DNA from: an uncultured Bacteroidia bacterium
GTDB lineage: Bacteria; Bacteroidota; Bacteroidia; Bacteroidales; F082
Reading direction: 5' to 3'
DNA: 56,637 nt
NCBI GenBank assembly: GCA_902787095.1
Contig: CADAFC010000003.1
Span: forward strand, 1-56,637
Program-made: the position numbers and the translations under genes
In this document: piece by piece, positions 5,111 to 21,885 of the stretch
Position numbering within the stretch: position 1 is the first letter of the stretch
Layout of the letters: each line of letters opens with the position of its first letter
The notes under the pieces: model-generated
Databases searched by the model: none
Seen by the model: the letters and a program-made list of their open reading frames with translations, nothing else
What the model was told of the DNA's origin: nothing

Positions 5111-5906
5111 TGTTTGATGTACCTATGTTGATCCTATTTATTGTGTTGCCGACGTTCCCTTTGATGCAATCTGTTTTTCGAACCCATCCGAGTCCACCAA
5201 TATACACACGATTAAATGATTCACGTGCATCCGGAGGAAGAACTCGGTTCACAACAGCGCGAACGTCTGTTACAAATTTGCGAGACGATGAATATGCTGT
5301 AATCAGCTCATCATCTGTTTGGAACACGGGTCCATTTACAGTTACCATGTCTCCGGCAACAATTTCATCATTCGGAACGTCTCTTTGGTTTACTTGAGTT
5401 AAATATGTAACATCGTCCGCCTGGTCTTCTTCGATCAACTCAACAAATTGTGGAGAAGTGCTGCGATATTCGCTAACATTTAGCTTATAATAGACATCAC
5501 CACTTTCACCACCTTTGTCTGATATCTCAAAGTCAGTCAAAACAGCTTTGAACGATGTGTCAAACATGTGTTGATCCGAATCAAAACGATTGATTATGAA
5601 ATCAAAAACCATTTTTTTCTTTTGAAGCTGATGGAAAAATTCAACATAAAATTCTGGTTTATACCACGAGTTAGATACAGTTATATCGATAAACGCATTC
5701 CTTGGGAAAAAACTAGAAATCTCTACGACGGCGAGCTTTGGATTTCTTGGTATAATCACCTCGCCAATGTTTATTAGGTTATATGTGCTGCTTTCACCAG
5801 GATAAGACACGGTAATTTCCGTCGGATTAACAGGAAGACGAACGGATTGTTTCGTTACGCCGTCAACGTCAACAGTATTAAAATAGATTCCAAACTGATT
5901 TTCCAT
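5097..5906 (-). CDS. Tail protein XkdP-like (tape-measure/hub connector)
   Basis: The 269-residue product begins MENQFGIYFNTVDVDGVTK with the family pattern LPVNPTEITVSYPG, and contains FEISDKGGESGDVYYKLNVSEYR, characteristic of XkdP-type proteins linking tape measure and hub. A clear LysM repeat is not obvious; the C-terminus (GGLGWVRKTDCIKGN) may replace it. It sits between tape measure and XkdQ, as expected, with a GGAGG site ahead of the ATG. Confidence 0.8.
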   Translation of the reverse strand: MENQFGIYFNTVDVDGVTKQSVRLPVNPTEITVSYPGESSTYNLINIGEVIIPRNPKLAVVEISSFFPRNAFIDITVSNSWYKPEFYVEFFHQLQKKKMVFDFIINRFDSDQHMFDTSFKAVLTDFEISDKGGESGDVYYKLNVSEYRSTSPQFVELIEEDQADDVTYLTQVNQRDVPNDEIVAGDMVTVNGPVFQTDDELITAYSSSRKFVTDVRAVVNRVLPPDARESFNRVYIGGLGWVRKTDCIKGNVGNTINRINIGTSNNENA

Positions 5907-8900
5907 TATCCTACCTCCCCATACGCATTAAACGATCCTGCGTCAGCCATCTGTCTAAGCTCTCGCTCTATCGCACGTGCATAATCTTGCGGACTGTTGT
6001 TTGTGCCAGAAATGGTTAGGTTTATTGTTGGTGTAAGCTGTCTCAGATTCACATCATTTACAAATCTTTGTTCAGCCAAATCTTTCATCCATCTTAAATC
6101 TTCTTCTTTATGCGACATGCTTGATACGTCATGCGACATATCACCGGTGTCTTCCTTTATTTCGTTAATACTCTTGAGCGTTCTCGAACTCTCCTTGGCT
6201 ATCTTCTTCATTGAACCGGCGGCAGTATCATCTTCATGTTTACCAAGACCAAGAGCGTTAAACGCACCACCGATCCATTCAGCCTGTTTGTCCCTCGGAT
6301 CGATAAACTTCCCTTTGATACCAGACAAATCAAGTGTTTTTTTAGAGTAATCGCTATATTTATCTCCCCAACCTTTTCTTACATCTGAAATATTTTGTTT
6401 AATCTCTTTTAATGATCGTGCAGCGTCATCAATTCCAAGTGCTTCACCGAGAGGGTTCCTCGATACAAATTCAATAAGATCTGCAATCTTGCCAATTAGG
6501 CTCTCAACGAGTTGTAGTACCGCACTAACCAGACCCCTGAAGAAATTTTGAACAGTATCCTTTATAAGTTTGAATGCCCCACAAACACCATTTACTATAT
6601 ATTCAGTGAGCGTCAGAATGGTATTATAAAACCCAATCCATGCATCATATAAACCATAAACAATGCCGGCAATTCCGCCGACAGCGACTGCCACAACAGT
6701 TTCAAGCAACCCAATGTCTTTGCCACCAATTTTTCTAAAAATAGCTCTCAGACCGACAATGGCGGCCGTGAGGACAAGTATTGGCATCGCAAAAGATTTG
6801 CTAAACAATGCTTTTGCAAACATTGTAACCGCCAAGCCTAATCTTTTGAAGTTTGACGCCGTTTTGGGCACACCTTTGAATGTATTCATTGCCGCCTTTC
6901 CTGCGGGAATGAGGGCTTTTGTAACAAAGGAAACACCGCCAATAGCTTCTTTGAGGAATGTAAAGACTCGGACGAAATGTGTTATTCCGAAAGACAATCC
7001 GGCGAGCATAAATAACGAATTAAACAATTCTTTATTTTCTTCATACGTGTGCATTACTGCCTTTCCGAAATCCCAGATTTTCACAACCAAATTTCCAACT
7101 TCTTTTGTTATATCAATAATTCGTTGCCTATCTTCTTCATTTGCAAAGAACTCGTAAAGGTCATCAATTATAGGCCTGATCGCCTCGGCGGCAGCAGTTT
7201 TAATATCGTGAGCAGTAAAGTCATACGATGCGACAAGTTTTTCGACCTGTCTTGATGTGGATGTCTGAATCTCTTTAGCGACCCGTTCCATTTTATTCCT
7301 AATGCCAACAGCTGCCGCGCTCTCAGATGCAGAATTGATAACATCAGTAACCATGTCTTTAATCTTCGGAGACGCGCCCTTTATTGCATCTATAGCTTTA
7401 GCGCCAAGATTATTTACTGTATTTTCAAATCCTTTATCCTCATATAATGCGTTTGATTCAGCCATGAGTGTCTTTATTTCTTCCAAGGCACTGTCGACGT
7501 CTTTTGATTTTAACGCGCCAAGAATATTCTTTTTTAATCTTTTCTCAAGATCATCACCGCCTCCAAACAGCATCGTAAGACCATCAACAGATCCTTTTCT
7601 AAATGCCTCGTTTAGAGACTCAACAATTGCGTTAAAATCTCCACCAGTAAGATCTGAATACATGCCTGACAGATTAAGCGTGTCTTTTATTTGTTTGTTT
7701 GTCATCCCGAGCGCAGCAAGAGCTTCAACCATCTTGTAAATCTCGCTCTCAGACATCGCAAATGATTTTCCTATATCTCTTGTGATAGACAAAATCGCAG
7801 AAGATCCTTCAACTCCAAACATTGCGACACTTCTTTCTGCCGTTGCCAAATCTTCTGATACGTCTCTTAAACTGGCAATTGAATCAAGAGCTTTATTGTA
7901 AAGCCCAACACCAATGCTAATCAGAGAGTTTATTCTTTTATATAGTTTTATGATTTTATGTAAGTTCCACAGATGACCGGCTGTAAATGAAAACAGCTGA
8001 TATCCAACTTTTTTCATTTCCTTCCCATATTTTTTTATAAACTCATCCGTCGGGAGTTTTTCAAAATCCTTTTTCGCTTTATTCGTGAAATTGCCTACTG
8101 TTGAGATAAGTTCTTCAAAATTGTTTTTATAGTCTTTTATTGCAATTCCGCCTGCTTCCTTCGCGTTGTTGGCAAACATAATCGCTTCGTCTTTTATCTT
8201 CAATCCGGACTTTATTGCGATGTTCTTCGCCTTTTCTGCATATGACGCGCTTGCATCATATGCACCTTTTACATTTTTCTCCGCATATTCAATCGCGCCA
8301 GAAATGCTCTCACTGGTTTTTTGAACGCCATTAACAACGGCACTTGTCGCCCCGACGACGGCATTTGCAGCAACAGCAGCACCATCCTGCATATCTGTCT
8401 TAAGGCCCGTAATGAGTAATGAAAGGCCCGACAATTCCCCCTTTCCAGTCATTACGTTTCTTATAATCTTTGGAAGAATTACTTCCGAAAGGAACAAAAG
8501 ACCGCCCCAAAACACAATCTTTTTGATTGTGTTCAAAATTGCCCTAACACGCTCAACAGTTCGGATAACCTTATCAATCTTAGACAACATCCGTCCAACA
8601 ATCGTGTTAGAAGCCCCAAGCATTCTCACTATCTTTTGAATGGTATTTGGAAATTCTGATAAGCCATGGCCTCCGATAGATATCTCTCCAAAAACAGGAG
8701 TGAATGAAGAATATAACTCCATCGCCCCGCCAATGCGGTCATTAAAATTGTTGAGCCGCTCAATTAGTCCTTCGATAGAGGTAGATGTAGACACAAGAGA
8801 ATCATTTATGCCATAAATCTTTTTTTCGGCTGTTGACAAAGTACCAAGATTTGATCCGATAACCGTCTTCCCAAGCTTAACCGCATTAAACGCTCGTTCG

Positions 8901-12763: not shown

Positions 12764-14185
12764 TTATTCAACCTTATACTCTATTGCAACCACACCCGAT
12801 GCGCTTGTAAACGATGGCCATGTCAGGACGTCGAGGTTACTACCTTGCGTTCTGATACTCAGCTTCAGACTGTTCTCTATGGTTTGACCGTTGGAATCGA
12901 TAAGTCGTACCGGCGTATATGTTTTTGTTGTATCACTCGGAATATAGCCACCGTTTGCATCATACAGGAGGTAAGGAAAGCCAGACATCAGATTTACAGA
13001 TGATTTGTTCGCAGAGAAATAAGCAATCGGGTTAGTCGGCCCTGTCCAAATCTCCATCAAACCGTTCAAGCCCATAATGAACTCAAAGCCTGCATCCGGT
13101 ATGAACTCAAGGTCGATGAAGTCTCTAGCGTTTCCGGTTGCGGTCATTAGTTCATCTTGGTCAGCGTCAAACGATATTGCATTAAGCTCAACCTGCTTAT
13201 CAGGATTCGTTTGCATCTCACCGTATGTAAATTGACCTTGCGGATAAACAGGGCCGACAGGTGCAACTGTACGCCAGAGAAGTATCGCCGTTGTGTCAAG
13301 TTCAAGCGTCACGCTTTCACCGAAACCGCCGATGTCCCAATTCTCCGGAATGTATGTTGTGCCATCTTCCTCGAACTCGCCATAAACGGATGGCAATGTC
13401 ACGTTGCTGCCCTTCTCTACGAGCATCGGCCCAGGCATCTCAACGTCGAACTGAGGATAAGTGACGTTTTTAAACGACAGAGTGACAAACTCACCGACCT
13501 TCCAGAGCAGATTGGCGACCTTGTTTTCGTTCATATAAACAGACTGCCCGAACTCACCTATATCCCATGCGAACGGCACCCATGTTTCGTCGTCAATGAC
13601 TTCCTTTGCATAAACCGAAGGAAGTTTGACAATTGTGTTGGCATCTGAGACAATATCATCCGGCAGTTCGACAGTGAAATCCGGATGGTCTGTGTTCGTG
13701 AATGACAGCGTGTAAAACTCTGGCTTTAGGCCCTTGAGGAATACACGCAAGTCTTCAATGACTTCCATGTATGCCGGAGGCGTTGTGTCTTTCGTTACAC
13801 GGAACTTGAGATTCATTGAGAATTTCAATGCGTCCATGTACATACCCCACGAGCGTTCGTAGGTGTGCGTGACAACGTTTTCGTATCCGTAGATCGGAAG
13901 ATACTCGCTAATCTCACCTAACTGGTCAGCTATCGCGGCATAATCATCAAACAGATGTGGCAGGTTGAAATCGAGCATGTAGTAAAGGTCAATGCCGTAA
14001 TTCATCCAATACCTTCCATGCAGATCTTCTTTGATGTTTACAGGTTCACGATGGACGATAAACCATGCAGGCAAATGCGTCCCTTGCTGATTTGGATTGT
14101 CATAGATATACGCATCCGGCGTTATGCGCAAAATTAACTGCGCAAGGGATTTATGTATAACCTGTGTGTCGATTACTATACTCAT
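12764..14185 (-). CDS. Tail terminator-like protein with added surface domains
   Basis: The first ~130 residues (MSIVIDTQVIHKSLAQLILR, later WMNYGIDLYYMLDF) fit phage tail-terminator/completion proteins, which are usually about 130-150 residues. Here the protein is 473 residues, with two copies of a domain of about 75 residues (IVKLPSVYAKE.., WDIGEFGQSV; then VTLPSVYGEFEEDG.., WDIGGFGESV) plus a further C-terminal domain. The same domain occurs in the distal tail protein at the circular join. Position after the HK97-gp10-like gene supports the terminator role. The start overlaps the preceding stop (ATGA). Confidence 0.7.
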   Translation of the reverse strand: MSIVIDTQVIHKSLAQLILRITPDAYIYDNPNQQGTHLPAWFIVHREPVNIKEDLHGRYWMNYGIDLYYMLDFNLPHLFDDYAAIADQLGEISEYLPIYGYENVVTHTYERSWGMYMDALKFSMNLKFRVTKDTTPPAYMEVIEDLRVFLKGLKPEFYTLSFTNTDHPDFTVELPDDIVSDANTIVKLPSVYAKEVIDDETWVPFAWDIGEFGQSVYMNENKVANLLWKVGEFVTLSFKNVTYPQFDVEMPGPMLVEKGSNVTLPSVYGEFEEDGTTYIPENWDIGGFGESVTLELDTTAILLWRTVAPVGPVYPQGQFTYGEMQTNPDKQVELNAISFDADQDELMTATGNARDFIDLEFIPDAGFEFIMGLNGLMEIWTGPTNPIAYFSANKSSVNLMSGFPYLLYDANGGYIPSDTTKTYTPVRLIDSNGQTIENSLKLSIRTQGSNLDVLTWPSFTSASGVVAIEYKVE

Positions 14186-15635: not shown

Positions 15636-15660
15636 AAAAAAGGCGGGCAGTCTGCCCGCC
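15636..15660 (-). terminator. Intrinsic terminator after the capsid block
   Basis: On the minus strand a GC-rich 8-bp stem (GGCGGGCA / TGCCCGCC, 3-base loop) is followed by six T. It lies between the 71-residue gene after the capsid and the DUF4054 adaptor, so it likely makes capsid transcripts more abundant than connector and tail transcripts. Confidence 0.85.
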
Positions 15661-15897: not shown

Positions 15898-16947
15898 TTA
15901 AATTCCGTCAACATAACGGATTGTCTGGTTATAGAAGATTTCAAGCTCAGAGATGTTTGCCATATAGACAGAATCATAGGCAAGAGCTTCAATGTTGGGT
16001 TGTGTCATTGTACGGGTAAGCGGAACAAGTTCTTCAAGTGCAAGATATTTCTCGTTGTGGCAATACACGATCATTCGATCTGTTGAACCAGCGCCTGCAC
16101 CTTTACACTGAACAGCTGCTTCGATTAAGAGCGCCTGACCGTTTAACTTTGAGATGTTGTTGTCGAGCAAGAACTCAAGAATCGTTTTGTCTGCATACTG
16201 AGACACCTTGCTCGTTGCAATCTGCGTATATTGCTCATAAGGAATAAGTATATGATTTGGGATTGCAGCACGGTCATATCCGCATGCGGTCCAAACGGCG
16301 GTGATTGCCTGATTGATATCATTCAAGATCTCATCAGGAGTTTTATCGGACCACTTTCTAGATGTTCCGCCCGCATTCATATCGGCATTCGCAGCGGTAA
16401 CATTCGCATTGTTTGCCAACCCCGTCGTGCCATACTCAGACAAACCAAGATAAGCATTTTCATCCATATGTTTGTCGTAAGTGAGACGGACGCCATCTGT
16501 CAGCAATGCATCTAACGATTTGCCGGTTACCTGCATACGCTGCATGTCAACAAACGGAACACGGAGAATGGTCGAGAATACGTGTGCCCCGAACATATCT
16601 TTTTCAAGATTCATCTGTACGATCGGAGAACCATTAGCTCCAGGTGCAGACACGGTTCCATTTCCAGAACCGCCCGTAACACCGAAATCAATGTTCATTG
16701 CCGAAACATACTCAACCCATCCACCGCCAACCTTAATTGGGACGTCTCTGGTATAAGTAATTGACGTCAACGGCTGCTTGATCTGTGGTTCTCTTTTCTC
16801 AAGCTCAGAGACAAGGAAGGTCGCTCCAGTAGCGATCGCGCCATCCTTAAACGATCTAATTGATTTGCCATCGTTAAACCGAGCCACCGAGCTGATTCCA
16901 CCGCTTCGGCCAATAACACCCGCGTTAATAGTACCGTAATTTTTCAT
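15898..16947 (-). CDS. Major capsid protein, DUF2184-like
   Basis: A 349-residue protein with a strong AGGAGGAG site and a terminator soon after it. KEPQIKQPLTSITY-like sequence near residue 55 and the HILIPYEQYTQIATSK region fit the DUF2184/HK97-fold capsid family used with DUF1073 portals. It lies downstream of protease, decoration and accessory-head genes. No N-terminal delta domain is visible, so a separate scaffold is expected. Confidence 0.85.
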   Translation of the reverse strand: MKNYGTINAGVIGRSGGISSVARFNDGKSIRSFKDGAIATGATFLVSELEKREPQIKQPLTSITYTRDVPIKVGGGWVEYVSAMNIDFGVTGGSGNGTVSAPGANGSPIVQMNLEKDMFGAHVFSTILRVPFVDMQRMQVTGKSLDALLTDGVRLTYDKHMDENAYLGLSEYGTTGLANNANVTAANADMNAGGTSRKWSDKTPDEILNDINQAITAVWTACGYDRAAIPNHILIPYEQYTQIATSKVSQYADKTILEFLLDNNISKLNGQALLIEAAVQCKGAGAGSTDRMIVYCHNEKYLALEELVPLTRTMTQPNIEALAYDSVYMANISELEIFYNQTIRYVDGI

Positions 16948-16955
16948 TTCTCCTC

Positions 16956-17357
16956 CTACGACTTTCTTGGCCTACCTACTGGCCTTTTTGGTGTATTTTC
17001 TTTTTGAAGAAGTTGCTCTTGCTTTATTGCAAGTGCTTTTCTTCGATTCTTTTCCTGATTAATTTTTCGTATTTCGCTGATCCAAAGACGAACCTGATTT
17101 GCAACAGCCATCGCTCCGGCAAACGTCGTTACGACCCCAATGAAATCTGTTGGTCTTCTTGCTGCAAGATCTTGCGCGCTTTTGTCTGCTTCTCGTTTGG
17201 CTTTTAAGATATCCGATGCAATTTTCACAGTCCCGGTAGATACAGCCGTCAGCAACTTAAACATCTCTTTATCTGCAGCAGATACGTCTTGTCGGCGTTT
17301 AAGTCTTTTAAACCTAAACTCATCGAGAATCTTTTTAAGCTTATTCTCTCTTTCCAT
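16956..17357 (-). CDS. Basic head-cassette protein 1 (putative internal head protein)
   Basis: A 133-residue, Lys/Arg-rich helical protein (MERENKLKKILDEFRFKRLK) with a central hydrophobic helix (DFIGVVTTFAGAMAVANQVRLW) and a basic tail (NTPKRPVGRPRKS, AT-hook-like GRPRK). No family recognised. It is one of six basic proteins between decoration and capsid genes. A role inside the capsid, bound to DNA or ejected with it, is inference. Confidence 0.65.
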   Translation of the reverse strand: MERENKLKKILDEFRFKRLKRRQDVSAADKEMFKLLTAVSTGTVKIASDILKAKREADKSAQDLAARRPTDFIGVVTTFAGAMAVANQVRLWISEIRKINQEKNRRKALAIKQEQLLQKENTPKRPVGRPRKS

Positions 17358-17359
17358 GA

Positions 17360-18736
17360 CTATCTCTTCCCAAGCTGTTTCATGTATCTGAGGACTTCTT
17401 TCCTGGCTGCGAATCGCTTTTGCATCTTTTCGAGTCTTTTTTGAGAATCTTTTTGATTCGACTGAATCCTTGAAAGCGCTGCTTTTTCTTCTTTTACCTT
17501 GCGTCTACGAGATACCCATTCTGCATGTGCTTTTTTTCTTTTCGCTTCTATGGCGTCTGCTTTAGCCTTGTTGAGCTTTGCATTTACCATTTCAGCAGCA
17601 TGTTCGAGCTTCTCAAGATGTTTTTTTGCATCTACCTCTTGATTAGTTGCTTTCATTATATTTATAGTAGCCTTTTTTGCAACCTTTCTGAGGTTTTCAA
17701 CAACTTTTTTCTGATACTTAACGGCTTTTTCGTCCGCTTTAATGGCAGCCTTTATGTCTTGTTCTTTCTTTATTTCCGCCTGCCGCATTAAGCGATTAAG
17801 CTCTTCTTGTTTTGCTTTTTCTTCTTTTTTCTGTTCTTTTCGCTTTTGCTCGGCAGCCTTCCGCATTTCTTTTAATGCGCGGGATTCTTCTCTGCTCTTT
17901 ATTTTTAAGAACTTGTCTTCTTCGATGTAATCATCTTTTTGTTCTTTTTCAAGCGCGGCGCGAATCCGTTCTATTGCATTCGACTGGATTTGCTCTTCTT
18001 TTTGACGAGAAATTCTGTAGTTCTTTTCTTCATTTTCCATCTGGCGCTTAATTTCGGACAAGATTTTCTGTTCTGCATTTCTCGCCTTGATCCGTCCTTC
18101 GACGCCTTTTGTGAATTCTTTTTCTCGTTGTTCTGAGACATTTTGTTTGCGTTTTAAAACGCGTTTAAGCATTTTTGCTTCTTTGATTTGCGCCTTAAGT
18201 TTAGACGATTCATCTTTTGAAGTCTTATCGCCGTATTTAAGCAGTTGTTCCTCAAGCTTTCCTATGAGTTTTTCTACGGCTTTTTCTTTTGCGATATTAA
18301 ATGCTTTTTCAACGACCGCGCTTTTAAGCTTATCAATGACAGCCTGATTTTTCGATAGCTTATTGGCAATACTGGTACCGGCAGAAACGATGGTCGTCGC
18401 GACCGATGGTGCCGCCGTTGCCGCTACTGCCACAGCCTTTGCTGCTTTGTATGCACGTGCATATTTCACGACCTGGATGCCGACAGGAATAATTCCTGGG
18501 AGCATGCTTAAGATAATTAGTGCTATCTGCGTATAGTCTATATTACTCTTTTGCGGCTCTTGTGGTTTGCTGGAAAGCATGGCTTTCACTTTTTCAAGCA
18601 GCCGTTTAATTTTTTCACGGAGCTTTATAGCCGCTTGCTTGAGCTTAAACTTCATTCTCTCGGCAACAGACTGCTTCTTCGCAACGTCAGCACCAGAACG
18701 ACTCTTCCCAAATATGGTTAAATCACTATGCCTCAT
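17360..18736 (-). CDS. Large basic coiled-coil protein with membrane segment (head cassette 2)
   Basis: 458 residues. The N-terminus has the motif HSDLTIFGKSRS. A basic helix follows, then a hydrophobic region (IALIILSMLPGIIPVGIQVV) and an Ala-rich stretch, then ~300 residues of Lys/Glu/Ala coiled coil. This resembles the general layout of phage ejection proteins (membrane-active part plus long helix) but no family is recognised. It lies inside the head gene block, so it is probably in the virion. The stop overlaps the start of the adjoining small gene by four bases. Confidence 0.65.
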   Translation of the reverse strand: MRHSDLTIFGKSRSGADVAKKQSVAERMKFKLKQAAIKLREKIKRLLEKVKAMLSSKPQEPQKSNIDYTQIALIILSMLPGIIPVGIQVVKYARAYKAAKAVAVAATAAPSVATTIVSAGTSIANKLSKNQAVIDKLKSAVVEKAFNIAKEKAVEKLIGKLEEQLLKYGDKTSKDESSKLKAQIKEAKMLKRVLKRKQNVSEQREKEFTKGVEGRIKARNAEQKILSEIKRQMENEEKNYRISRQKEEQIQSNAIERIRAALEKEQKDDYIEEDKFLKIKSREESRALKEMRKAAEQKRKEQKKEEKAKQEELNRLMRQAEIKKEQDIKAAIKADEKAVKYQKKVVENLRKVAKKATINIMKATNQEVDAKKHLEKLEHAAEMVNAKLNKAKADAIEAKRKKAHAEWVSRRRKVKEEKAALSRIQSNQKDSQKRLEKMQKRFAARKEVLRYMKQLGKR

Positions 18737-18924
18737 TTTTTACCCCTCAATGATTTAACCGTCTTGACAAGTTTGTTTACAGATGATGCAACCTTCTCGC
18801 ACGCAGAAGACGAAATGTTGTCAACAGCCAACAATCCATCTATTGCATGCAAAGAAACCTCAAGCGCTATCTTTAACATCTTGAGCTTTCTTCGTTTTGT
18901 AAAAATTGCATCATTGTGATTCAT
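18733..18924 (-). CDS. Small basic head-cassette protein 3
   Basis: 63 residues, starting MNHNDAIFTKRRKLKM and ending KLVKTVKSLRGKK. The D-A-I-F-T-K start resembles the DLF-K start of its neighbours. It overlaps the next gene by four bases, implying translational coupling. Function unknown; probably belongs with the other basic head-region proteins. Confidence 0.6.
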   Translation of the reverse strand: MNHNDAIFTKRRKLKMLKIALEVSLHAIDGLLAVDNISSSACEKVASSVNKLVKTVKSLRGKK

Positions 18925-18963
18925 TGCTTTCTCTTAGGAATGTCCGATTGGAGATGTTTGGTT

Positions 18964-19296
18964 TTATCTTTGATTGAGCAGTTTTTGTGCATATCGGTAT
19001 GCTGCGGCATCCGCAATGGCGCTTCTCACATTCGCAACCAACGTCGCAAGCGACGCTTTAATTGACTGTTTATCTGCAGATTTGAATGCTTTCATTAGTG
19101 CTTTAAATGCATTTTTGACCGCATCGACTGCAGCAATATATTTTTTCTTTGCAGCCTTAAATGCCGCCTTTCCGCTTTCCTTTGCTTTCTCCGGAAGCGT
19201 TTTCTTGCCGGAGCCAAAAAGGTCTTTATGCGCACGAGCTTTAGGAACAAGAACCAGTCCTCCGAACTCGTCGCTATATCGTTTTACATATTTCAT
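18964..19296 (-). CDS. Basic Lys/Ala-rich head-cassette protein 4
   Basis: About 110 residues from the ATG at 19296 (AGGAG upstream). The N-terminus MKYVKRYSDEFGGLVLVPKA leads into ARAHKDLFGSGKKT, containing the cassette's DLF motif. The rest is amphipathic Lys/Ala helix (GKAAFKAAKKKYIAAVDAV). No family recognised. Composition suggests a DNA- or membrane-binding internal protein. Confidence 0.6.
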   Translation of the reverse strand: MKYVKRYSDEFGGLVLVPKARAHKDLFGSGKKTLPEKAKESGKAAFKAAKKKYIAAVDAVKNAFKALMKAFKSADKQSIKASLATLVANVRSAIADAAAYRYAQKLLNQR

Positions 19297-19304
19297 AGCG
19301 TCTC

Positions 19305-19670
19305 CTATACGTCTATAAACCCGTATTGTTTTTTTATGCCTTGCATGGTCTTTATACATTTGATGGCAGTCGACACTAACGAGCTAACGCTTACGGTTAT
19401 CGTAATGATGCTCTTGATTTGAATTATTGCTGACTCAATAAATCCGGGATCAACATGCTTCATTCCGAGTTTGATCGCAATGCCGTCTATCAGCCTCGCC
19501 GCTTTTTCTTTCAGTGATGCAAAAAGACCCTTTATCTTTTCAAGTATGACTTTAAAAACAATCTTTACCTTAGAGATGGCCCCGTTGTTTTTTTTCTTCT
19601 TAAAAAGATCCCTCTTCGTACTAATTCGCTTTATCGGTTTTGGCGTCGTTTTCTTATACACGCTTTGCAT
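19305..19670 (-). CDS. Basic membrane-active head-cassette protein 5
   Basis: 121 residues with start MQSVYKKTTPKPIKRISTKR then DLFKKKKN, the shared motif. A basic helical half is followed by a hydrophobic stretch (IITITVSVSSLVSTAIKCI). It overlaps the upstream gene by 17 bases. Unknown family; the layout (basic helix plus membrane-like helix) is like the other cassette members. Confidence 0.6.
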   Translation of the reverse strand: MQSVYKKTTPKPIKRISTKRDLFKKKKNNGAISKVKIVFKVILEKIKGLFASLKEKAARLIDGIAIKLGMKHVDPGFIESAIIQIKSIITITVSVSSLVSTAIKCIKTMQGIKKQYGFIDV

Positions 19671-19977
19671 TGACCGCCCCCCCGTATTCTTTGGCCGTCT
19701 TTGCAGCGAAAATAACGGTTGCCGCTTTTAATGCAATCGAAAGCACTCCCGCAGATATTTTAACGGCCTTTGCCGCCTTGCTTACTCTTTCTGCTCTTTT
19801 CTGTGCTTCTTGCAAAGAACCAGTTCCGCCAGACGCAAAGGATGCAAGCGATGATACGAAAGCGCGAATTGACATTTTAAATGCTTTAAGCGCTTTTTGA
19901 ATCTTTTTAAGTGCAATCTTTTTCTTGGCCTTAAGGCTATTACTGCTGAATAAATCAGTTCGTCTGGCGATTGTCAT
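19654..19977 (-). CDS. Basic Lys/Ala-rich head-cassette protein 6
   Basis: 107 residues; start MTIARRTDLFSSNSLKAKKK has the clearest DLF motif, then Lys/Ala helices and a hydrophobic helix (VLSIALKAATVIFAAKTA). It is the first cassette member after the decoration-like gene. Strong bias to Lys, Ala and Ser. No family recognised. Confidence 0.6.
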   Translation of the reverse strand: MTIARRTDLFSSNSLKAKKKIALKKIQKALKAFKMSIRAFVSSLASFASGGTGSLQEAQKRAERVSKAAKAVKISAGVLSIALKAATVIFAAKTAKEYGGAVNAKRV

Positions 19978-19985
19978 TGGTTTAC

Positions 19986-20495
19986 CTATGCGTTGACTGC
20001 GGAGAGGATGACAAGCTCAACAACATTATTTGAGTCTTTAGAGCCACCCCATTTACAGTTCGGAAGAAGAATTGTGTCTGTATTAAGTGTGCCGACGGTG
20101 GCGGTAAAATCGCCAATAACGTTTGAATTTGCCGTGCTGATGGCAAGATATACGGGTCCATTAAGTGCAGGACTTCCAATCTTACACTCAACGTTGATTC
20201 TGCCTCTCTGGAAACAGGAGACCGGGGCATTAGGTGCATAAACTCCTGCATCATTAGGAGACAGATAGTTAATATTCGTCTCCACCTGTCTTGCCGCGAC
20301 GCCCGCGAAATCATTAGCAGTAATAGAGGCTGTTGGAAGCTGCACACCACCGGAAGCCACCATGAGTGCATGTCCGAAAGGAATATTTGCGCTCGCTTCT
20401 TTATTCGGATGCGTATTTACAATCAGATCCGGCTGACGAGCATACGAACCTGCGAATCCATTATTAAGACTCTGACCTATTGTCTTTCCACTCAT
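19986..20495 (-). CDS. Head decoration / structural cement-like protein
   Basis: A 169-residue protein with IPFGHALMVASGGVQLPTAS, ITANDFAGVAARQ and GPVYLAISTANSNVIG. These match the small beta-rich cement proteins (DUF2190/gp24-like) that stabilise expanded capsids. It follows the DUF2213 protease/scaffold gene, as in related phages. AGGAGG-type ribosome site upstream. Confidence 0.78.
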   Translation of the reverse strand: MSGKTIGQSLNNGFAGSYARQPDLIVNTHPNKEASANIPFGHALMVASGGVQLPTASITANDFAGVAARQVETNINYLSPNDAGVYAPNAPVSCFQRGRINVECKIGSPALNGPVYLAISTANSNVIGDFTATVGTLNTDTILLPNCKWGGSKDSNNVVELVILSAVNA

Positions 20496-20506: not shown

Positions 20507-21274
20507 TTATTTCTTGTTATTTTTATGTGGATCAAGTCGATCGTAAATCTTTTGAATTTTTTCGACGTTAATCGACGCACTAGACGCAGAATCACGACGT
20601 TCCTTGTTGGCCTTCACAAGTTTCATAATGTTAGGCATCTGAGATTTCTTGCGTGTGGCTTTAAGGATAGCATCCTGAACCATCTTGCGGTCACGTTTAT
20701 CTTTGATCTTGTTAGCGGCATTGCTGATGATTTTAATAGCTGAATCACTTGCCGAAAGCGTCGCAGGCTCTTCGTCCATCGGGATCACGGCGTCTTCATC
20801 CTCAACGTCTTCGTCTTCGACGTCTTCATCACCGATATCGTATTCACCATCTTCGATGTCTTCGTCGAGGACGTCTTCGTCTTCGACGTCCTCATCAAAA
20901 CTGAGGTCTTCATCGCTAATGTCTTCATCCATGTTAACATCTTCGTCAGCACTCATTGCTTCATTTGCAGAAGCACCTCCGAGTTTTGAGAGAATAGCCT
21001 GAAGCTGAGCAAGCGTTGCTTTAAGTTCTGCGCCAACGTCTCCGCCTTCATCTGCACTCATTTCTTCACCAACGACGTCCTCATCAACGGCGACATCTTC
21101 ATCAACAAGATCTTCGTCAACGGCAAGATCTTCGTCCATGCTGATATCTTCATCTTCGTTGCACGCATCAGAAAGCACCTCTGCAGCGTCACGGAAACGC
21201 TCTTTGATGTTTTCGGGCGTAGCGTCTTTGAGATACTTAGATACGATTTCTGCAATCTCTTTCTTTGTTGCCAT
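20507..21274 (-). CDS. Possible nested scaffold protein from internal start in the DUF2213 gene
   Basis: Inside the DUF2213 gene, in frame, an ATG at 21274 (MATKKEIAEIVSKYLKD) is preceded by GAGAGGAAG. Translation from here would give about 255 residues lacking the protease domain: a helix, the acidic DED repeats and a basic C-terminus. Phages with protease-scaffold fusions often make the scaffold separately from such an internal start (lambda C/Nu3). The ribosome site is visible; use of it is inferred. Confidence 0.5.
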   Translation of the reverse strand: MATKKEIAEIVSKYLKDATPENIKERFRDAAEVLSDACNEDEDISMDEDLAVDEDLVDEDVAVDEDVVGEEMSADEGGDVGAELKATLAQLQAILSKLGGASANEAMSADEDVNMDEDISDEDLSFDEDVEDEDVLDEDIEDGEYDIGDEDVEDEDVEDEDAVIPMDEEPATLSASDSAIKIISNAANKIKDKRDRKMVQDAILKATRKKSQMPNIMKLVKANKERRDSASSASINVEKIQKIYDRLDPHKNNKK

Positions 21275-21832
21275 GTCTTCCTCTCTTAATGATTTATGTT
21301 TTGCGTCGCGAATAGCAACAGACGGACCAGCCCGCCCTTCGTCCACAACTGCGACGTGATTGCCACGAATTTTGGTTTGACAAATTCTTCCCTGGTTGTC
21401 TTCTTTATCTTCTGCGTAATAACCGGCCGAAACCTCTCGTTTCCCATTTCTGATTTCGTTAATCAGGACTTTGTCGGTAATATACAGATCTGCAATAATT
21501 TTATCTTCATCATCTCCAGAGCCAAGACGAACATGCTGAACATGCCCTTTCTGATACAGTTGATAATTGTCCGGAGTAACATCGACGTCGGGATGTCCAT
21601 CTGTTACGGGTTTCCCCTCAAAGGACGCCAGTGTTGCTGCGGAAAAGACTTCGCTCGGAGAACGATAAACGTTGATAATCTTTTTGGGGTCACCGTCCTC
21701 GATAAGCTCAGACTCAAGATAATGCTGATATCCAGTCCTTGCAATCGGCACATTGCGGCAAATCAGAAACCCTTCTGGGGTAACTGCCATATTTGTCGAC
21801 AATTTGTCGCCATAATAGCAAATCTTGGTCAT
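20507..21832 (-). CDS. DUF2213 head protease/scaffold protein with acidic repeats
   Basis: 441 residues from the ATG at 21832 (AGGA site). Residues ~1-180 fit DUF2213 (GKPVTDGHPDVDV near residue 73, IRGNHVAVVDEGRAG near 155, with His159 and Ser171 as candidate catalytic residues), a herpes-protease-like prohead peptidase family. Residues ~225-355 are extremely acidic, with many DEDV/DEDL/EDED repeats, and the last 80 are basic. The DNA of the acidic part is a low-complexity GAC/GAA repeat. It sits between minor head and decoration genes. Confidence 0.83.
   Translation of the reverse strand: MTKICYYGDKLSTNMAVTPEGFLICRNVPIARTGYQHYLESELIEDGDPKKIINVYRSPSEVFSAATLASFEGKPVTDGHPDVDVTPDNYQLYQKGHVQHVRLGSGDDEDKIIADLYITDKVLINEIRNGKREVSAGYYAEDKEDNQGRICQTKIRGNHVAVVDEGRAGPSVAIRDAKHKSLREEDMATKKEIAEIVSKYLKDATPENIKERFRDAAEVLSDACNEDEDISMDEDLAVDEDLVDEDVAVDEDVVGEEMSADEGGDVGAELKATLAQLQAILSKLGGASANEAMSADEDVNMDEDISDEDLSFDEDVEDEDVLDEDIEDGEYDIGDEDVEDEDVEDEDAVIPMDEEPATLSASDSAIKIISNAANKIKDKRDRKMVQDAILKATRKKSQMPNIMKLVKANKERRDSASSASINVEKIQKIYDRLDPHKNNKK
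20780..21150. repeat. Low-complexity GAC/GAA coding repeats (acidic DED tract)
   Basis: Degenerate repeats of GACGTCTTCGTC type (plus strand) encode tandem DED, EDED and VDEDV units in the DUF2213 protein. The region is interrupted near 20960-21050 by a non-acidic helix. The repeats could vary in number by slippage. Confidence 0.7.
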
Positions 21833-21885
21833 ATTTCCTCCATGTTTAACGGCATGATACACAAAGTGCAATATGTGTCAAGACG

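Follow-up and report, generated by a model that had tools for sequence, protein, structure and literature searches.

Six basic proteins with a related N-terminal motif in the head module of a contractile-tailed phage: candidate internal head proteins

The head module of the phage described here carries a cassette of six genes, A to F, which occupy positions 16956-19977 on the minus strand between the genes for the cement (decoration) protein and the major capsid protein. The window, by which we mean the whole analyzed stretch of 56,637 nucleotides (C3:1-56637; the genome comprises 2.18 Mb in 179 contigs), is a complete contractile-tailed phage genome that was binned with a bacterial genome; a direct repeat of 99 base pairs (bp) at both of its ends indicates that it is complete as assembled. 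The cassette is a real, non-random arrangement. Its products are all strongly basic, and five of the six (A-E) carry the motif D-x(0-2)-[LI]-F within their first 35 residues, while F has only DKEMF. We propose that the six may be internal head proteins, loaded into the prohead by way of this motif and ejected together with the DNA.

A short N-terminal motif recurs in dissimilar proteins

Aligned on the phenylalanine, the six sequences read RTDLF, KRDLF, HKDLF, NDAIF, DLTIF and DKEMF. When all patterns of the class residue, gap of 0-2, residue or [ILVM], residue were searched, D-[0-2]-[LIVM]-F was the top pattern of its class across the cassette proteins. With every pattern of the class searched each time, 3000 shuffles of the first 35 residues never matched its score, nor did 3000 of the whole proteins. 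The narrower string DLF occurs in three of the six, a count reached by one of 20,000 shuffles, although this motif was picked after the data had been seen. An exact 3-mer common to at least three of the proteins was not significant (7,585 of 20,000 shuffles). As a control on real genes, we took 265 further genes of this phage and of its relatives G060, G061 and G062, all called with a Shine-Dalgarno sequence. Within the first 35 residues, DLF was found in one of these and D.{0,2}[LI]F in seven, one of the seven being the 448-residue insert of G061. A first-pass annotation, made from the sequence alone, had pointed to related N-terminal motifs in five proteins, and these counts bear it out.

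The codons that spell the motif differ in each cassette gene, suggesting that it has been kept as protein and not copied as DNA. Mutual BLASTP among the six proteins gave no significant similarity (lowest E-value between different proteins 0.06), which, together with the differing codons, shows that the motif does not stem from a recent duplication. The window thus has the arrangement of the T4 type, in which proteins with unrelated bodies have a short N-terminal sequence in common, and relatives have it as well. In the structure model of A, computed with AF2 and no alignment and therefore weak (mean predicted local distance difference test score, pLDDT, 65), three helices are predicted and the motif falls in a stretch without secondary structure, residues 1-13. 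A reading of the motif as basic-basic-x-D was tried and proved weak (three of six proteins, p 0.04).

Properties of the cassette proteins and their neighbors

The features of the cassette and its borders are collected in Table 1. Gene A starts 8 bases after the cement stop codon, A/B and D/E overlap, and the remaining neighbors lie 2 to 39 bases apart. For protein C, the ATG behind the Shine-Dalgarno sequence TAGGAGA was chosen over the first-listed start at 19359.

Table 1. Cassette genes and flanking head genes (window coordinates)
Feature	Coordinates	Strand	Length (residues)	Description
Protein A	19654..19977	-	107	pI 11.3; TDLF with D at 8; helical
Protein B	19305..19670	-	121	RDLF with D at 21
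Protein C	18964..19296	-	110	KDLF with D at 25
Protein D	18733..18924	-	63	NDAIF with D at 5
Protein E	17360..18736	-	458	SDLTIF with D at 5; hydrophobic stretch from 71, then long charged region
Protein F	16956..17357	-	133	weak motif DKEMF, D at 29; a hydrophobic and a basic stretch, AT-hook at the C-terminus
Cement/decoration gene	19986..20495	-		PF22758, E-value 7.9e-23; upstream border of cassette
Major capsid gene	15898..16947	-		PF09950, E-value 1.7e-63; phrog_264; downstream border of cassette
DUF2213 head maturation protease	20507..21871	-		PF09979, phrog_530/12864; C-terminal 234 residues very acidic (net -46)

The net charges of A to F are +19, +19, +17, +8, +55 and +17, and their isoelectric points (pI) range from 10.1 to 11.3, confirming the earlier description of six basic head-region proteins between the decoration and capsid genes. 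Membrane-like helices had been suggested for several of them. This is borne out for protein E, whose most hydrophobic 19-residue stretch was reached by 8 of 2000 shuffles, and not clearly for the others, whose stretches were reached by 109 (A), 206 (D), 240 (F), 516 (B) and 598 (C) of 2000. The charged region of E, judged by eye, is probably a coiled coil. Protein F contains a GRP core with basic flanks (KRPVGRPRKS) that conforms to an AT-hook, so that DNA binding is predicted for it; its structure model, also made with no alignment, has a mean pLDDT of 64.

Searches for homologs and families

Neither PHROGs nor Pfam gave a significant match to any of the six proteins (best PHROG E-value 0.0073; best Pfam E-value 0.0013, below the cut-off). 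Nothing significant that would explain the proteins was found in PADLOC or, for protein E only, among PDB sequences; NCBIfam was not searched. Known ejection protein families of the P22/T7 type likewise gave no significant profile match in PHROGs or Pfam, nor did these two databases reveal a relation to T4 internal proteins, which were not compared directly. Matches of F to Cas12c (E-value 9e-4) and of B to PDC-M14B (E-value 0.013) in PADLOC, as well as the sub-threshold Pfam match of A to OmpA (E-value 0.0013), were rejected as composition effects of basic helices.

Proteins E, F and B had no homolog in viral_contigs, and tblastn with A, B, C, E and F against 50,697 phage records at E-values up to 1 found none. 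Against the first 67 related loci (individual loci are denoted by L and a number), tblastn with all six proteins returned only C against L004, at an E-value of 0.32. Nothing was found for E in 9 records of relatives, and C matched only the window's own genome among 393 genomes of the order. In Smith-Waterman comparisons, the similarity of B to L119 1549-1950 (none of 1000 shuffles, 63 pairs tested) and those of C and B to L005 298-606 (3 of 1000 shuffles each, 63 pairs tested) were set aside as too weak for homology. For A-E, no convincing homologs were found in the databases and loci searched.

Protein F is related to a protein of L005 (none of 5000 shuffles) and to one of L119 (none of 1000), and with the AT-hook parts removed the relations persisted (1 of 3000 and 2 of 3000 shuffles, respectively). 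Both relatives carry AT-hooks of their own, KRRRGRPRKGT in L005 and KRPVGRPP..KNPVGRPRK in L119; both records are cut at their starts, and the N-terminal ends of the two proteins lie outside them. By its sequence, F is a member of a small family of the cement-capsid interval that combines a hydrophobic stretch, a basic stretch and an AT-hook. The earlier statement that no family is recognized stands for PHROGs, Pfam and PADLOC and, for E only, for PDB sequences, and is modified in one respect by these relatives of F.

The cassette as an accessory insertion

In 67 loci collected by a capsid scan, we took the distance between the cement and capsid tblastn matches as the gap. It measured 13-243 bp in 62 of them, which indicates that the cassette is an accessory insertion; the other five (L005, L028, L043, L046, L066) had no cement match. 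Four of these five (L028, L043, L046, L066) begin 0-220 bp ahead of the capsid match. L005 begins 1.2 kb ahead of it and has three basic genes there. L119, from a later scan, begins 1.98 kb ahead of the capsid and has four genes there, two of which have computed net charges of +8 and +15. In both records the relative of F is among the genes directly upstream of the capsid, which cover at least 1.2 kb in L005 and 1.9 kb in L119. L103 and L105, found via the cement gene, have one gene of 113 residues (+4) in the interval, which L101 and L102 are without.

Near relatives carry other small, mostly basic genes between the protease, the cement, the capsid, the gene for a 71-residue protein and onward to the neck, and this inserted content varies from phage to phage. 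Basicity is higher in the nine called inserts of the window (two) and of G060, G061 and G062 (seven) than in the 186 other open reading frames (ORFs) called in these four phages (p 3.7e-5) and in their 72 core genes (p 2.9e-6).

N-terminal tags in relatives

All seven called inserts of G060-G062 begin with M-N, compared with 15 of 258 other genes, and five of the seven begin with M-N-x-[LI]-[KR], compared with one of 258. These starts were set by the start rule and not by the motif; two of the seven (MNIYKQR) are homologs. The two window inserts in the same comparison begin with MK and MR.

A longer tag recurs in L122, L120/L121 and L007, with about 20 residues close to M-N-L-K-R-Y-I-D-x-[AM]-[IV]-R-[RK]-E-[IV]-[RK]-[RK]. 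A profile was built from nine of these tags. In a search of 172 sequences with 14,324 distinct ORFs it found 12 matches at an E-value <0.2, all of them in L122/L120/L121/L007: the nine seeds, one near copy in L121 and two new ones (L007 11470-12252, L122 9090-9365). Among the 66 pairs formed by the 12 tagged proteins, 14 were alike at full length, all from the first six residues, and none remained so without the first 26 residues. Two tagged genes of L122 (19067-20838) sit behind the tail tube gene, showing that tagged inserts are not confined to the head part.

Three long basic proteins, of 504, 359 and 448 residues, are encoded at L103 4229-5743 and 6685-7764 and at L004 12628-13962; they have in common the N-terminal module LDAMxPEFKAANAELLKAIK... 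and differ in their C-terminal parts. An N-terminal module is likewise common to the long proteins of G061 (448 residues) and of L103/L105 (504 and 359 residues).

We also considered a single tag for all of these phages and rejected it, as the L122 profile does not recognize the window proteins and a broader tag profile reaches p <0.05 for none of them. From the sequences, the window motif and the tags of the relatives are not demonstrably one element.

An acidic protease as proposed scaffold, and candidate cleavage sites

The C-terminal region of the protease, defined as residues 221 onward, was compared across 91 loci. Among the insert-bearing rows of the clade, nine have a usable protease (the window, L100, L134, L103, L133, L171, L121, L122 and L132; L136 is a fragment), and in these the net charge of the region ranges from -34 to -138. 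In the other loci the range is +1 to -37, with seven of them (L013, L014, L018, L021, L023, L062, L067) at -34 to -37.

In the capsids nearest to that of the window, F-x-D-[GSA] stands shortly ahead of the conserved core, separated from it by a few residues; distant relatives mostly have M-D-[AE]-A-G-I-A-S-G or similar. In the published structures, the first 30 capsid residues of XM1 (PMC10457771) and the first 65 of E217 (PMC10329688) are unseen, possibly owing to cleavage; the hydrophobic-x-D near the capsid N-terminus may for that reason be where the DUF2213 protease cuts during maturation. A cleavage site common to capsid and cargo was also considered. Within the first 40 residues, F-x-D occurs in 11 of 30 proteins of relatives (null mean 2.6, kinship uncorrected), and neither F-x-D nor [FLIVM]-x-D-[AGS] occurs in any of the six window proteins. 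A common site thus fits the relatives and not the window.

Interpretation and alternative explanations

Our favored reading is that A-F are internal head proteins, brought into the prohead by a tag before the DNA and ejected along with it; we hold it with confidence that is evenly poised between acceptance and doubt. It is drawn from the motif statistics, the differing codons, the basic charge set against an acidic protease, the accessory location, the portable tags and the precedents of T4 and P1. The proteins would be made along with the head genes as accessory cargo, and D-x(0-2)-[LI]-F would serve as a short targeting signal read by an inner part of the prohead. The reader of the signal would most likely be the DUF2213 protease-scaffold, by way of its acidic C-terminal region and aided by opposite charge. 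Once the scaffold is degraded, the proteins would remain in the head with the DNA, enter the host with it and work there at an early stage, with DNA and membrane as the probable sites for F and E. The whole set would be exchangeable, as expected of counter-defense or take-over factors, and other N-terminal tags appear to fill the same role in relatives.

Somewhat more tentatively, we suggest an exchangeable tag-and-cargo system, in which unrelated basic proteins are inserted between virion genes and lineage-specific tags change along with the acidic protease-scaffold. This phage would use tags of the DLF type, near relatives M-N-x-L-K and the L122 group M-N-L-K-R-Y-I-D. If true, this would be a phage group outside T4 and P1 whose sequences reveal the loading tags, with many cargos per tag. 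The rules by which sequences direct proteins into phage heads would become testable, and each tagged protein would be a candidate injected factor.

Several observations weigh against packaging by such tags. DLF is not kept in the counterparts of the cassette proteins: D.{0,2}[LI]F occurs in 2 of 30 proteins of relatives (null mean 1.1), and these two are homologs. The earlier proposal of a targeting tag is supported in part, by the reality of the motif and by the sharing of tags by unrelated bodies in relatives, and finds no support in the conservation of DLF. The L122 tag profile, applied to the window, gave p 0.001 for C before correction for 42 tests and 0.30-0.86 for A, B, D, E and F; with the broader profile, F reached p 0.07, C 0.08, A 0.10 and the others at least 0.39. 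The pairing of acidic scaffolds with inserts is imperfect as well. L014, L018, L021, L023 and L067 have regions at -34 to -37 without a called insert, a basic ORF is called in some loci whose regions are weakly acidic (L096 +21, L078 +13, L074 +12, L025 +12), the rank correlation is only 0.25-0.28 over the 91 loci, and the link is confounded by descent. Inserts are moreover not uniformly basic or cargo-like: the insert of G062 has a net charge of -2, a gene for 83 residues between its portal and minor head genes (not among the counted inserts) has -5, and L007 carries between the corresponding genes, at 5519-6067, a thymidine kinase (PF00265, E-value 4.8e-28) that shows no sign of being cargo.

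The same thymidine kinase, an ordinary gene inserted in a head module, lends weight to an explanation in which the cassette encodes late accessory proteins that are never packaged, act on DNA or membranes in the infected cell and use the motif to bind another phage or host protein. Such action would suit F with its AT-hook and E with its hydrophobic stretch. This explanation leaves the tags shared by unrelated bodies in several relatives, and the strong basicity of the inserts, without a cause, and we consider it unlikely, though with a real share of the probability. Less probable still are assembly helpers, which would belong to the core inside the prohead or condense the DNA, would be required for head size or packing, and would not be sent into the host. 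Their basic charge opposite the acidic protease-scaffold region and their place among the head genes would be in keeping with such a role, whereas the interval of at most 243 bp in all 62 measurable loci of the first scan, and the change of contents between near relatives (L101/L102 versus L103/L105), imply that the proteins are not generally needed.

Two further explanations concern the motif itself. That it is functionless and arose by chance in lysine-rich proteins would accord with the frequency in shuffles of exact 3-mers common to three of the six proteins and with its having been picked after the sequences were seen; since no shuffle reached the pattern score even with the pattern search included, and so few control genes contain the motif, we regard this as very improbable. 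The other is a peptide of the sliding-clamp-binding type, with the proteins acting on host or phage replication. Clamp-binding motifs take the form x-x-[DATE]-[LIM]-F and are opened by glutamine. The cassette motifs aligned on F resemble the last three residues of this form, while the opening glutamine is absent in all six, and we give this explanation the smallest share of all.

Genome and head-module setting

Besides the genes of Table 1, the head genes identified with PHROGs and Pfam include a portal (phrog_146), and PHROGs identified the sheath of a contractile tail (phrog_279, E-value 1.6e-98). Among 393 genomes of the order the capsid matched only the window's own genome, so that the host is not established; among 60 relatives, too, only the window's own matched. 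Behind the gene for the 71-residue protein, an inverted repeat followed by a T run lies at 15636-15660 (GGCGGGCAGACTGCCCGCCTTTTTT, minus strand) and is likely a terminator inside the head module. Between the window and G061, sheath and baseplate wedge are 97% identical, far above the capsid (75%), the tube (79%) and the tape measure (37%), which points to recent mosaic exchange. The phrog_525 protein at 12764-14185 has 473 residues and its counterparts 157 (L002), 240 (L005), 339 (L004) and 528 (L102), indicating a variable C-terminal part.

Comparison with known systems

The cement families PF22758 and PF23982 are held in common with contractile phages of the XM1 and E217 type. As far as the text of the XM1 paper was available, its scaffold gene is unidentified and the word "internal" is absent (PMC10457771); in the available part of the E217 paper, ejection proteins are merely possible (PMC10329688). 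To that extent, neither structure paper decides whether phages of this kind eject proteins. Among the papers listed by literature searches on N-terminal motifs of ejected proteins and on internal head proteins in the rumen, none concerned this phage group. Cargo proteins stored in capsid and tail are described for crAss001 (PMC10172136).

The ejected head proteins of the giant phage SPN3US are internal proteins made as precursors with propeptides, and its prohead protease processes them by cutting behind A-X-E (PMC10052503). The hydrophobic-x-D of the capsids studied here is comparable with this site and with the cleavage of phage P1 at E120/S121 (PMC9024508). SPN3US differs in belonging to another phage group. 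In P1, the 30 N-terminal residues of DarB suffice for packaging a reporter (PMC9024508). The likeness is that a protein is directed to the capsid for delivery by no more than 30 of its N-terminal residues; unlike in the Dar system, a motif is common to several proteins in the window.

The T4 internal proteins (IPI and others) resemble the cassette in several ways. What these diverse proteins retain in common is a capsid targeting sequence, by which they enter the scaffolding core (PMC3012670). As in the window, diverse proteins have only a short N-terminal sequence in common and form a highly exchangeable set, and the phage is contractile-tailed and has a prohead protease (PMC3012670). Unlike in T4, A-F fall into no significant PHROG or Pfam family, and the window genes lie inside the head operon, with a DLF motif here and other tags in the relatives.

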